Assembly (NCBI GenBank): GCA_024280835.1 | Contig: JAJRPJ010000011.1 | Coordinates: 62,001 to 126,000, forward strand | DNA from: Candidatus Zixiibacteriota bacterium | Lineage (GTDB): Bacteria; Zixibacteria; MSB-5A5; GN15; JACZUZ01 | Direction of reading: 5' to 3' | Length of the DNA stretch: 64,000 bases | Part shown: in pieces, positions 26,933 to 57,039 of the stretch | How the letters are laid out: every line of letters begins with the position of its first letter | How positions within the stretch are numbered: position 1 is the first letter of the stretch | The notes under the pieces: generated by a model | Seen by the model: only the letters and a program-made list of their open reading frames with translations | Database searches by the model: none | Told to the model about the DNA's origin: nothing | Position numbers and translations under genes: made by a program

Positions 26933-27005
26933 GGGCCTGTAGCTCAGTTGGTAGAGTGCTGCGTTCGCAATGCAGAGGTCACCGGTTCGATCCCGGTCAG
27001 GTCCA
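26933..27005 (+). tRNA. tRNA-Ala, anticodon CGC
   Basis: A complete cloverleaf can be drawn. The acceptor arm is GGGCCTG paired with CAGGTCC (one G-U), the D arm GCTC/GAGT, the anticodon stem CTGCG/TGCAG with loop TTCGCAA, so the anticodon is CGC (codon GCG), and the T arm ACCGG/CCGGT with loop TTCGATC. The discriminator base is A. CCA is not encoded, so it must be added after transcription. Confidence 0.96.
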
Positions 27006-27081
27006 CTTTAAGATTTGGTGATTGCAATAAGTAGTGTTGTTTTAGTGAATAGTTAGTTTTTTGCAGCTTGAATGAAAAATT

Positions 27082-27196
27082 AGATCAGCGGTTGGGCCCT
27101 GTGCGAGTCTGACCTACCGAACCCCGTCAGGCCTGGAAGGGAGCAGCGGAAGGTAAGGTTACGAACTGTGTTGCAGATCAGTCTGGCCGCTGATCT
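27082..27196 (+). ncRNA. ffs: Signal recognition particle RNA, small bacterial type
   Basis: It contains the hallmark domain IV core GTCAGGCCTGGAAGG followed by GAGCAGC, with the GGAA tetraloop and the asymmetric loop that binds Ffh. The ends pair as AGATCAGCGG with CCGCTGATCT, closing a ~115-nt rod. An A and then seven Ts (27198-27204) follow directly, so the closing stem doubles as an intrinsic terminator. It lies 76 bases after tRNA-Ala and upstream of dnaX, a gene order seen in many bacteria. Confidence 0.95.
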
Positions 27197-52252: not shown

Positions 52253-55200
52253 ATGCAATCATTGGGACATCTACCATTCACAGGTCGCGATGAGGAGCTT
52301 GCGCTCCTGCATGATATCTATATCCACACCCTCCACAACGAGCGCCAAACAGTATTAATCGAAGGCGAAGCGGGAGTTGGCAAGTCGACCTTGGTCAACC
52401 GCTTCCTCGACGAACTCGGCTCCGAAGGAGCCATGATTCTAAAAACCTATGGCGCACCATCCTTCGCAGGTTTTCGCACAGTCTTTGGCGGACTCTTGCG
52501 CTCTTTCCTCTCATCGGCGACACCGCGGGATGTCAGCGCCTCGAATCTATTTGAACTAGGCACCGCAGGGGCGCTAGCTAGATTGGCTCCCGAAGTGCGA
52601 GATATGATTCCATTTGACATCTCGCCCACTCAGGAAGAACCACCCAACCCCACCCATGAGATGGAGCAAACACTAGATGGACTCCGCTTGTTCATTCTGC
52701 GTTTGGCAACTCGTAAACCACTGGTAATCCTCTTTGAGGACGCCCACTGGTTCGACTCACGAACATGGGAAGCCATCAATTCTCTCGGACGAACTCTGGG
52801 ACCATATCCAATTCTGTTTGTCATCACACTTCGATCCTCAGAACTCGACGATGAATGCGAAAGAATCTACCGCTCCCTCTGGCGCAACAAACCGACCGAA
52901 CGTGTTCTCCTCTCACGATTCGAAAGCGCTAACTCTCGCCGAATTATTGAACGACTTTTCGGTGTCACTATCGCTGATAATATTGCTCTCGAAGTGCACG
53001 ACTCAACTGGCGGCAATCCGCTCTTCATTCATGAAACACTCAACACTCTAGTCGAACGCGGACTAGTTCAGTTTAACCGCGAAACAAATACTTGGAAACA
53101 AACAGTAGAACTACAAGGCAAACTACCCTCACCAGAAGCCGCCACCTACATATTCCAAGAGAGAATAGCAGGCTTCAAAGACAGCGAAGTTGATCTCTTT
53201 CGACTGGCCGCTTTGCTTGGGCTTCAATTCAGAGCCGAATGGCTCAAAGAACTCTCAGGACTTTCCGAAGACGGATTCATCCAATTTCTCAACCGCTCAC
53301 TAAAAGCCAATCTACTTGTCTCAGATTTCCAAGGCGGACTCAGCTTCTACCATCAACTGATACAACAAAACTTACTCGACACAATCCCAGCCCAAAGACG
53401 CACAGCCCTGCGCTTAACTCTATATGAGTATTTCATCAAACGCACAAAAACCCATCCCACCGAGGGTCCCTTCCATCAGTTCTTGGCCATGCAAGAATAC
53501 GAGCCATCATTCGCGGAGCGCTATGGAGTCGATATTGTCGAACACAATTTACATGCAGCCATCAATACCTTCTCCTCATTTTCGACCTCATTGTCCATCC
53601 GCTACTTAGAAACAGCGCGAGAGGCTCTGAGTCGATTAAATCCCAACGAGCAAGAGGACTCCAAACAATTACTCTACAAGGTCTATTTCGAACTAGGACG
53701 CACTGCCCTAGAATCAGGTCGCGCCAGAAAGGCCGTCATCTATTTTCGCTGCATTTCAATGTTCCTACTAGGACATGTCACTCTCGACCTAGCAGAACAA
53801 ATCCGCCTCCTGCGCAGTTTGGCCGAAGCGCATTTCAAAACCGCGAACTACCAGCGCATCGCTAACTATGTCAACCGTGCAGTGGCGTTAGCAACTGGTG
53901 TCGACACCTCGCTGGTCATCAAAGAACTAGTGCAAATTCAATTTATCTCAGGACTCTCCCAATACAACCAAGGCCAATACGAAAGCGCAACTCGCGAAAC
54001 CGAACGTGGCCTAGCTATGCTCGCCGAACGCGAAATCCGTGACCCACAACTAGAGCTAGCTGGCCTCCGCACCAAAGGCATTATCCTCAACCGTATCGGC
54101 AGACACACTGAAGCTGAAAAAGAGTTCCTCAAATCTCTCAGCATGGCCGAAAAACTCAATGACAAACGTGAAATCGGACGCGCGCATTATTACCTAGGCG
54201 TAGTCCGTCAATACATTGGTCAATTCAATCTAGCAATGTCCTGCTACCAACGCTCAATCGCCATTTGCCGCGAAGTCGACGACCTCGACACTCTCTCAAA
54301 AATTTATAATAACCTCGGCGTACACTATAGCGAATCTGGCGACCCCAGCGAAGCCGAACGCAATTTCCGCAGAGCGCTCGAAGTCCAAATCCAAATCGGC
54401 GCGGTTTACACAGCGCTAACCTCACGTATCAACCTCGCTGGCTCAATTCATTCATCAGGACACACCGAGGAAGCGCTCGCCGAAACGAAGAAAGTGTTCG
54501 AAGAGTGCATCCGCATTAATGCTGTCAATCTCATTCCTGCGATTTTTGATTCCGAAGTAGAAATCGCTCTCGATGCTGGCAAACTTGACCATGCCAGCGA
54601 AACTCTGGATAAAATGCGCACTTGGCTTGAAACCGCTGAATCAAATTTTGGTCTCGACCAATTGAAAAAACTCTCAGGACGTTTAGCTATTCTTCGCGGA
54701 GAGTTCAAAAGCGGCTGGAAAGAGCTACAAGAAACCGTCAAAATCTATGTCGAAAAGGGTGAATCCTTCCGCGCAGCGCAAGCTATGGCCGAAGGCGCAA
54801 TCCTAATCTGTGAAACCAAGAAAAGCGGCGCCAAAATCCCAGAATCAATTCTGAAAACCGTCGAAATCCACATCAAAGAAGCGCTTAGTATCTATGACGA
54901 ACTCAATTTCAACAAACGCATCGAACAACTTCAGAAAAAAATCCTCGCCGCCGACAGCCCCACTGGCAGGTTCGGCAAACTGGTCTCAAAAGCAACAACC
55001 ACAAAACCAACTGAACCGGAAACCCATAATCGTCATCGCGCTCTTGTCCGTTGTTTCGGCCGACTAAAAGTCACTTGCCCAGGACGTCATGACGAAATCG
55101 ATGAGAAAGCCTGGCCGTCAAAAAAGGCTCGCGTCCTCCTCGCTTACCTCAGTGTCGGAACAACGCCTGGCCGCGCTCTCTCACGTGATAAAATTTGTGA

Positions 55201-55864
55201 CGCACTCTGGGGACATCTTGGACCTGACACTATCATGTCCTCATTCCATGTAACACTCTCAAACCTGCGAAAAACACTGTCGACGGAATCCACCAAGGAA
55301 TACAAGAACAGCGAAATCATCATCCATCAGGACGGCAACTACAACCTCGGGTGGGGCGACAATTACTGGTGTGACATTCAAGAATTCGACGCCCTCTACC
55401 AAAGTGGCAAACGCTATCTCAGCGAAAACAAAGTCCATCTCACAGCCCGTGACTTTGAAAAAGCCCGCGTGCTCTACCAAGGCCCACTACTTGAAGATAT
55501 GTACGACAGTTGGCTCGAAGGACCACGCGATAATTATCGTCGCAAGAATATCGAAATCTCTCAGCGCCTCGCCGAAATCTATTTCGACAAAACCGAATAC
55601 GACCGCACACTGGCCCTCTCCCAAGAAGTCCTACTCGTTGACCCAACCGAAGAACAAGCCCATCGCCTCCTGATGCTGACTCTCTTCACAATTGGCCGCA
55701 AAGCCGCCGCGGTCAATCAATACAACGCTTGCGTAAAATCCCTCCAACAACGTCTCGAAATCGAGCCAGATCAAAAAACCGTAGACCTCGCGAAATTGAT
55801 TAAATCATCCTCCGCTAAGCTCAACGAGCTCTCACCCACCAAAGCCAAAACACTATTTGTGTAG
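52253..55864 (+). CDS. Giant regulator: ATPase, TPR array, C-terminal DNA-binding/BTAD domain
   Basis: 1203 residues with a good AGGA site. The N-terminus is an AAA/STAND-type ATPase with Walker A EGEAGVGKST and Walker B-like VILFEDAHW. Residues ~430-890 are a long TPR array (IGRAHYYLGVVRQYIGQFN and similar). Residues ~925-1190 contain an OmpR-like winged helix (SRDKICDALWG... SNLRKTL) followed by a bacterial transcriptional activator domain (EFDALYQSGKRYL... YDSWLEGPRDNYRRKN). In SARP/AfsR proteins the winged helix and BTAD are N-terminal, so here the order is reversed. It is predicted to be an ATP-dependent transcription regulator. Preceded by a terminator, so it has its own promoter. Confidence 0.9.
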   Translation: MQSLGHLPFTGRDEELALLHDIYIHTLHNERQTVLIEGEAGVGKSTLVNRFLDELGSEGAMILKTYGAPSFAGFRTVFGGLLRSFLSSATPRDVSASNLFELGTAGALARLAPEVRDMIPFDISPTQEEPPNPTHEMEQTLDGLRLFILRLATRKPLVILFEDAHWFDSRTWEAINSLGRTLGPYPILFVITLRSSELDDECERIYRSLWRNKPTERVLLSRFESANSRRIIERLFGVTIADNIALEVHDSTGGNPLFIHETLNTLVERGLVQFNRETNTWKQTVELQGKLPSPEAATYIFQERIAGFKDSEVDLFRLAALLGLQFRAEWLKELSGLSEDGFIQFLNRSLKANLLVSDFQGGLSFYHQLIQQNLLDTIPAQRRTALRLTLYEYFIKRTKTHPTEGPFHQFLAMQEYEPSFAERYGVDIVEHNLHAAINTFSSFSTSLSIRYLETAREALSRLNPNEQEDSKQLLYKVYFELGRTALESGRARKAVIYFRCISMFLLGHVTLDLAEQIRLLRSLAEAHFKTANYQRIANYVNRAVALATGVDTSLVIKELVQIQFISGLSQYNQGQYESATRETERGLAMLAEREIRDPQLELAGLRTKGIILNRIGRHTEAEKEFLKSLSMAEKLNDKREIGRAHYYLGVVRQYIGQFNLAMSCYQRSIAICREVDDLDTLSKIYNNLGVHYSESGDPSEAERNFRRALEVQIQIGAVYTALTSRINLAGSIHSSGHTEEALAETKKVFEECIRINAVNLIPAIFDSEVEIALDAGKLDHASETLDKMRTWLETAESNFGLDQLKKLSGRLAILRGEFKSGWKELQETVKIYVEKGESFRAAQAMAEGAILICETKKSGAKIPESILKTVEIHIKEALSIYDELNFNKRIEQLQKKILAADSPTGRFGKLVSKATTTKPTEPETHNRHRALVRCFGRLKVTCPGRHDEIDEKAWPSKKARVLLAYLSVGTTPGRALSRDKICDALWGHLGPDTIMSSFHVTLSNLRKTLSTESTKEYKNSEIIIHQDGNYNLGWGDNYWCDIQEFDALYQSGKRYLSENKVHLTARDFEKARVLYQGPLLEDMYDSWLEGPRDNYRRKNIEISQRLAEIYFDKTEYDRTLALSQEVLLVDPTEEQAHRLLMLTLFTIGRKAAAVNQYNACVKSLQQRLEIEPDQKTVDLAKLIKSSSAKLNELSPTKAKTLFV

Positions 55865-56233
55865 CTAATTCACCGCTGATTCTTCGACGCTATTGCCCCC
55901 AATTTGGGTCCGAAAGCGCCACTTTTTACCCTTCTCTCTCCAGTATTTTCCATCTTTCACCAAATTCCCCCCAAATTCTCACTTTTTCAGCAAAATATCC
56001 TTTTTTTCTCAACCAACATTCCAATAGCCACAAACGCCGATACAGTATTAAGTTATGCCAAATAGCAGGTGTCGCAAATTCTCAAATAACCAATAACATC
56101 AACTTTTCTGAATTTTTCAGCGGATTTTAAGTCCCCTTTAACTGGCCTTTAAGTCCTCTGAATATCTTGGGGTCAGTTGCGAGGATAGAACCCAAAACAA
56201 AACTAATCCTCGAACCCAGAAACGGAATAGAAA
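55865..56233. other. Intergenic, pyrimidine-rich, no gene seen
   Basis: About 370 bases after the large regulator gene. The plus strand is rich in C and T (for example CAAATTCCCCCCAAATTCTC), with several TTTTT runs, but I find no perfect hairpin. No coding frame. Confidence 0.4.
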
Positions 56234-56791
56234 ATGAGCATCTTCGATAAGACATTTCTAACAAATAGAGACAGAACAAATAAAGACAGAATCGCCGCCA
56301 ATGCGCTAACAGCATTGACTCATAGAGGCGCCGATTCGACCTCCTTCAGCTTGAATTCAGTAGGGGCTGTGGCTTTGGACACAAAGTCAACGCTGCGGAA
56401 CGGAGACCCTAGTGGGGATTCCATCGCCACCGCTTCTTCTGAGTTTAGCGCTATCAACCAAGAAACAATCAACCGAGAAACCATCTCTGATCTTATCTCA
56501 GACGAATTCATCTCGGACAATTTGCTCGACGAATGTACAATTGACACCAATGACACCAATTCTCATAAAAGACCTGCGGGGGTATTGCGCCTGTTTGCTG
56601 AATGGACAATCGGCTTCGAACAAGCATTCCCGTGGCTACGTGGGTCATCTATTTGCGCCTTCCCCTCTTGGAGAGCGGAGGGGTTGGCGCGAATTATTTT
56701 TCCAGCGTCGCTATTGGTTGCCGCTGTTCTAAGCCACACTGAAAACTTGAGTAGACCTTGGGGCCTCCACTACAGGCCGCAGTTTCTATAG
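56234..56791 (+). CDS. Hypothetical protein, doubtful
   Basis: A 185-codon frame beginning at ATG 56234. The first ~115 residues are rich in S, T, N, D and E with low complexity. The rest includes a short hydrophobic segment (IIFPASLLVAAVLSH) and ends without family resemblance. A hairpin-forming repeat lies inside the 3' part, which is unusual for coding sequence. I recognise no homologue. It may be a fast-evolving accessory gene or non-coding DNA. Confidence 0.3.
   Translation: MSIFDKTFLTNRDRTNKDRIAANALTALTHRGADSTSFSLNSVGAVALDTKSTLRNGDPSGDSIATASSEFSAINQETINRETISDLISDEFISDNLLDECTIDTNDTNSHKRPAGVLRLFAEWTIGFEQAFPWLRGSSICAFPSWRAEGLARIIFPASLLVAAVLSHTENLSRPWGLHYRPQFL
56655..56690. repeat. Inverted repeat inside the doubtful ORF
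   Basis: GCGCCTTCCCCTC at 56655-56667 is mirrored by GAGGGGTTGGCGC at 56678-56690. The arms pair except for a TT/TT mismatch, and the spacer is 10 nt. No A or T run adjoins, so it is not a terminator. It may be a dispersed repeat unit. Confidence 0.6.
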
Positions 56792-56846
56792 TCTGATTGC
56801 CGTACTCGGGATGAAGTTTACTCCCCTAGTACTAGAAGTAAGTAAA

Positions 56847-57039
56847 AGTCACACCGCTCTAATAAAGAAGAGAGCGGACTTAACCATTAATCTGGAGGTA
56901 TGTGGATGGAGCCGCGAAAGCGGTTAAGCTGACGGCAAAAAACTGTAAGGTATGTAATCGTCACAGCCGTGTGCTCATTGAGCGTGTCGGTTGTGACGAA
57001 GACAGCAGTCGCCACTGACGGGGCGGCTGTTGTTTTTTT
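56847..57039 (+). ncRNA. Unassigned structured RNA ending in an intrinsic terminator
   Basis: Four successive helices can be drawn. CCGCTCT/AGAGCGG (56854-56877) is extended by AAGT/ACTT. AGCCGC-GAAA-GCGGTT (56910-56925) has a GNRA tetraloop. CGTCACAGCCG/CGGTTGTGACG (56959-56998) has an inner GCTC/GAGC hairpin. The last is a terminator: ACAGC...CGCC paired with GGCG...GCTGT, then T7 (57033-57039). The single-stranded parts contain two GGTATGT copies. The terminator is ~190 bases before an exported lipoprotein gene, so it may be a riboswitch-like leader or a free small RNA. It does not match any riboswitch class that I can recall. Confidence 0.55.

Follow-up and report, generated by a model that had tools for sequence, protein, structure and literature searches.

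Organization of the locus

The window, meaning the whole 64,000-nt stretch of DNA analyzed here, comes from a Candidatus Zixiibacteriota bacterium and carries at 56847-57039 a structured RNA element that ends in an intrinsic terminator. Upstream of it on the same strand are a gene for a SARP-type regulator, an array of short direct repeats, and a small open reading frame (ORF), while a lipoprotein gene follows 190 nt on. The features referred to below are these:

52253-55864, forward: SARP-type regulator of 1203 aa, with an AAA_16 ATPase domain, TPR repeats, a winged-helix-like stretch, and a BTAD domain
56126-56153, forward: probable SARP operator, TTTAAG at 56126, TTTAAC at 56137, and TTTAAG at 56148, at exact 11-bp spacing
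56163-56168, forward: putative -10 hexamer TATCTT, 8 bp past the last TTTAAGT, predicted from sequence
56234-56791, forward: fast-evolving small ORF of 185 aa, open in all four genomes, with no family
56507-56533, forward: motif FISDNLLDE of the window's ORF (FISDNLQDE in general)
56651-56694, forward: strong hairpin within the ORF, z -4.3, near-identical in G001
56854-56877, forward: P1 hairpin, CCGCUCU/AGAGCGG (CCGCCUG/CAGGCGG in G003), z -4.7 in the window and G001 and -2.2 in G003
56884-56956, forward: conserved core (GGAGGU, P2, P3, AAGGUA), from a four-genome alignment and covariance model
56894-56899, forward: unpaired GGAGGU of the core, before P2
56910-56925, forward: P2 hairpin of the core, GAAA tetraloop at 56916-56919, a modest z of -2.9
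56932-56946, forward: P3 of the core, short
56947-56952, forward: unpaired AAGGUA of the core, after P3
56959-56998, forward: P4 hairpin, stem kept and sequence variable, z -4.7 in the window, -6.3 in G001, -5.6 in G003
56998-57039, forward: P5, the intrinsic terminator with its U tract (hairpin 56998-57037), z -6.1, from a terminator scan; identical in G001, including the loop
57129-57157, forward: promoter-like sequence of the lipoprotein gene, outside the element, TTGACG-17-TATATT, a sigma-70-like consensus match at 10 of 12 positions

Elsewhere in the window, at 26933-27191, genes for a tRNA and a bacterial small SRP RNA are separated by 85 nt, and both are ordinary.

Fold of the element

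Four stable helices occupy 56854-57039, the last of them being the intrinsic terminator. For the 193-nt element the folding energy is -76.4 kcal/mol, while its shuffles average -55.1 (z = -5.2) and 0/200 of them are as stable; P1, P4, and the terminator are each individually significant by fold z. Taken by itself, the core is no more stable than its shuffles (z -0.6), which indicates that the constraint on it is mainly on sequence. An earlier note on this DNA had described the helices, the GAAA tetraloop, two copies of GGTATGT, and the terminator, and all of these are present. The GGTATGT copies, at 56897 and 56949, are not significant as a pair: 53% of the element's shuffles contain a repeated 7-mer of some kind (16% a repeated 8-mer), and the equivalent sequences are unequal in two of the relatives, being GGTAGGT and GGTATGC in G003 and GGTCTAT and GGTAAAC in G002. 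A role for them as paired protein sites was rejected on both grounds.

The earlier note had also proposed an Rfam scan and a covariance search in related genomes. None of the Rfam 15 covariance models scored above its gathering cut-off on the element, and relaxing the E value (up to 10) brought only sub-threshold, chance-like matches, none of them credible.

Conservation and distribution

The element is found in all four genomes examined of its family and in none of the 129 further genomes of the class. With a covariance model built on the core, these 4/133 genomes were matched at E values of 3.8e-13 to 7.7e-18, and the next best match stood at 0.07; the set for the phylum-level covariance search was the same 133 genomes and added nothing past the four. 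A DNA search of 60 relatives recovered the sole congener examined, G001, at 83% over the element, along with core matches in G002 and G003, which represent two further genera of the family. An exact-pattern scan of GTDB species genomes returned only these three relatives, all Candidatus Zixiibacteriota MAGs (the window's own genome is possibly not in that set), an exact-core scan of viral contigs gave no matches, and no paper turned up in a full-text literature search that combined the phylum name with "noncoding RNA".

Between the window and G001, there is a single difference in the 76-nt core and none over a terminator stretch of about 38 nt, compared with differences at 63% of fourfold-degenerate sites in the regulator gene, whose best 76-nt stretch has 69 matches. 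This contrast with the fourfold sites indicates nucleotide-level purifying selection on the element, the conservation of which is far beyond chance. GGAGGU and GACGGCAAARAAYUGUAAGGUA are its invariant parts.

The helices are kept with differing sequence. If the P1 stems are matched by position, three of their pairs differ on both sides between the window and G003; six pairs of P2 persist in G003, around a different loop; P4 is a long stem of very different sequence in G001 and G003; and the last feature of the G003 element is likewise a GC-rich hairpin with U after it (z -5.7). The greatest divergence is seen in G002, with GGAGGU and GACGGCAAAGAACUGUAAGGUA intact and with P2 (z 0.4) and P4 (z -0.8) both weak. 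Pairs were counted for covariation in the four-row alignment only, where P2 of G003 is one column off, and the count has no power at n = 4. After the core of G002 (contig L027, reverse strand, about 385-430), a GACGG...CCGUC helix with UUUUUU overlaps a CUCGGG...CCCGAG helix, so that the two are mutually exclusive in the manner of a terminator and anti-terminator.

The proposal of an undescribed structured RNA with a terminator is thus borne out: this is a clear RNA family without a name, from an uncultured phylum and narrowly distributed, at the level of one bacterial family.

The regulator and its putative operator

SARP-type regulators are best known from the antibiotic clusters of Streptomyces. 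The protein encoded here matches Pfam AAA_16 (8.1e-22), TPR_12 (6.6e-21), and BTAD (7.3e-26), with Trans_reg_C at 0.0013, below its cut-off, and has orthologues at 85% identity in G001, 64% in G003, and 55% in G002. The ATPase domain of the G001 gene is interrupted near its start by a single in-frame TAG (L025, 4425-4427), the frame being otherwise intact and conserved; this reflects either an assembly error or a nonsense mutation. The ATPase/TPR part also has a far-below-cut-off likeness to the NCBIfam models for a TOMM kinase/cyclase fusion and an FxSxx-COOH system TPR protein, peptide-linked families whose likeness would fit a peptide-type small ORF adjoining the regulator. Distant relatives of the regulator in another family (G104, G106, G107, and G108; 28-29% identity) were followed as well, and the DNA downstream of them has neither operator nor element.

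SARP regulators bind heptamer direct repeats with 11-bp periodicity that generally overlap the -35 region (PMC5930380, PMC10972967). The TTTAAG array agrees with 17 of 18 positions, is by far the best array in the window, occurs at period 11 only, and is preceded by a weaker unit, TTTCAG, at 56115. G000, G001, and G002 each have it as their sole zero-mismatch site, and it forms a conserved block between the window and G001. At the position equivalent to the putative -10 hexamer, G002 has TAGATT. The locus therefore has both parts of a SARP promoter, a BTAD regulator and direct repeats of 11-bp period before the target, and we infer that the regulator drives the transcript through the TTTAAG repeats.

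The element as the probable 3' end of a SARP-controlled transcript

The order regulator, FISDNLQDE ORF, element is found in the window, G001, and G002 (3/4 genomes). In G003, the ORF and element share a contig that breaks off shortly before the ORF, the assembly lacks the promoter region, and the regulator is on a different contig with another gene after it. The order ORF, P1, core, P4, terminator hairpin is common to the window, G001, and G003, and G002 has the ORF, the core, and then hairpins. In all four genomes, the core starts 9 to about 100 nt after the ORF stop. The earlier note had placed the element in a region with no gene, but this is not so on the upstream side: the upstream ORF ends about 60 nt before P1, and its equivalent frame in G003 runs through P1. 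The element thus lies between a coding gene and an intrinsic terminator on the same strand, the position of a 3' UTR, and is probably co-transcribed with that gene.

The gene on the other side of the element differs between genomes. It is the lipoprotein gene in the window, a gene for an unrelated 110-aa protein in G001, and a convergent gene in both G003 (holo-ACP-synthase-like) and G002 (phosphoribosyltransferase-like), these last two names being given by eye from the translations. A riboswitch or attenuator would be expected to precede a conserved same-strand gene, and the four genomes share none. Since the regulator, operator, and small ORF are conserved and the downstream gene is not, the element most likely belongs with the upstream transcript.

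Nucleotide-level constraint, the same gene order, a regulator and operator in 3/4 genomes, and the lack of a conserved downstream gene together make it most likely that a SARP-controlled transcript starting about 700 nt upstream has the element as its 3' UTR and terminator. The location of the G003 regulator and the unremarkable fold of the core speak against it. Once triggered, the AAA/TPR/BTAD regulator would bind the 11-bp TTTAAG repeats and switch on an mRNA of about 870 nt running to the terminator at 57039, which would encode the small fast-evolving protein and end in the structured RNA.

Where an RNA under constraint closes a regulated mRNA with its terminator and is followed by no conserved gene, post-transcriptional action is the most likely mode, in trans or in cis. 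We tentatively favor the first, in which the element would be released as a regulatory RNA derived from the 3' UTR and its invariant unpaired stretches would contact target mRNAs or a protein, while holding this to be somewhat short of an even chance. Hfq dependence is usual for such RNAs in Gram-negatives, although not universal. A search for Hfq found it in none of the four genomes and gave positives in the control genomes, which makes an Hfq-type sRNA unlikely.

Alternative interpretations

The main rival of action in trans is a cis-acting element of the 3' UTR, in which the core would bind a protein (the ORF product, CsrA, or a nuclease) and control how stable its own mRNA is or how it is translated. 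We regard this as a possible but less probable reading. Its constant place 3' of the same ORF and the failure to find Hfq in the four genomes both suit it, as do the unpaired GGA triplets of the core together with CsrA, which is encoded in 3/4 genomes (the fourth is 68% complete). GGA is not above its frequency in shuffles, however (P 0.41, 0.57, 0.45, and 0.19), and a full terminator with a conserved loop plus a second stable hairpin exceeds the needs of a protein site. CsrA-sequestering RNAs of the CsrB and RsmZ type have unpaired GGA triplets, repeated in hairpin loops, and a terminator. The element resembles them in its unpaired GGA, its terminator, and the presence of CsrA in the genomes, but its GGA is neither enriched nor repeated in hairpin loops.

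The body of the mRNA could also function as RNA, since conserved blocks and a strong hairpin lie inside the ORF. Nucleotide-level conservation between the window and G001 marks two blocks, 56633-56706 and 56748-56801, which are single copy and therefore not dispersed repeats. In G002 and G003 the interval from motif to core holds unrelated hairpins of equal strength (z about -5.5 in G001, G002, and G003); a strong hairpin is thus found there in 4/4 genomes, and its sequence is unrelated among three lineages. Over the whole ORF, changes are not in excess at third positions (54, 67, and 66 changes by codon position). These features could be accounted for if the entire transcript of about 870 nt were one large structured RNA or a dual-function RNA, with the ORF partly or wholly incidental. 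We consider this quite unlikely, because none of the four genomes interrupts the frame, its internal indels between the window and G001 (3, 6, and 9) are multiples of three and keep the frame, and codon changes in FISDNLQDE, a motif chosen for its amino acid conservation, are almost only synonymous across the four genomes. Outside the motif the ORF evolves fast; protein family searches gave no family for it, and AlphaFold gave no confident model (pLDDT 37.5). Other, mismatched sites for the DNA pattern of FISDNLQDE were chance-like, one in G007 lying inside an RNase-HIII-like protein (named by eye).

The core could also, or instead, be a translated mini-ORF at 56906-56932, in which GGAGG is followed after 7 nt by ATG, eight codons, and TGA, encoding MEPRKRLS (MEPRYAVN in G003). 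The Shine-Dalgarno spacing is good, and the window, G001, and G003 share the ATG, length, and stop even though the hairpin has indels. The mini-ORF is absent in G002, however, and constraint falls on all codon positions and extends beyond the stop through GACGGCAAARAAYTGTAAGGTA, which leaves this reading very unlikely.

Terminator-type riboswitches likewise have helices followed by a terminator, and the earlier note had held attenuation control of the lipoprotein gene to be plausible. Aptamer-like helices ahead of a terminator and the nearness of that gene fit such a role, but this reading is hardly tenable, contradicted as it is by gene order, by the promoter-like sequence that the lipoprotein gene has after the terminator, and by the lack of a match to any described class. 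The covariance search did yield homologues, but no shared type of downstream gene. The RNA that was noticed is real and undescribed, but it had been tied to the wrong gene.

Relation to known systems

As the probable 3' end of a SARP-activated mRNA, the element recalls the bacterial regulatory RNAs from mRNA 3' ends covered by a review (PMC9438474), which it resembles in structure, conserved unpaired stretches, an intrinsic terminator, and its position at the end of a regulated mRNA. It differs from them in that its genomes yielded no Hfq and its sequence is unrelated to any Rfam family. The closest parallel for the promoter is PimR of Streptomyces natalensis, a SARP-LAL regulator with a single target promoter, pimM (PMC5930380). 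Both systems have an ATPase-containing BTAD regulator and three direct repeats of 11-bp period at the target promoter. They differ in the heptamer (TTTAAGN here, CGGCAAG for PimR), in domain order (AAA and TPR first and BTAD last here), and in output, which in Zixibacteria would be a small protein and a structured RNA. In its fullest form, which we judge unlikely, the locus would be a cassette of one Zixibacteria family, in which a single-target SARP-type AAA/TPR regulator controls a structured dual-function mRNA of about 870 nt with a fast-evolving FISDNLQDE peptide and with the near-invariant 3' core as its effector.

The locus illustrates that a terminator-bearing RNA ahead of a gene need not control that gene. 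If the reading as a 3' end is true, it would link a SARP-type regulator to a structured 3' RNA as its conserved output.
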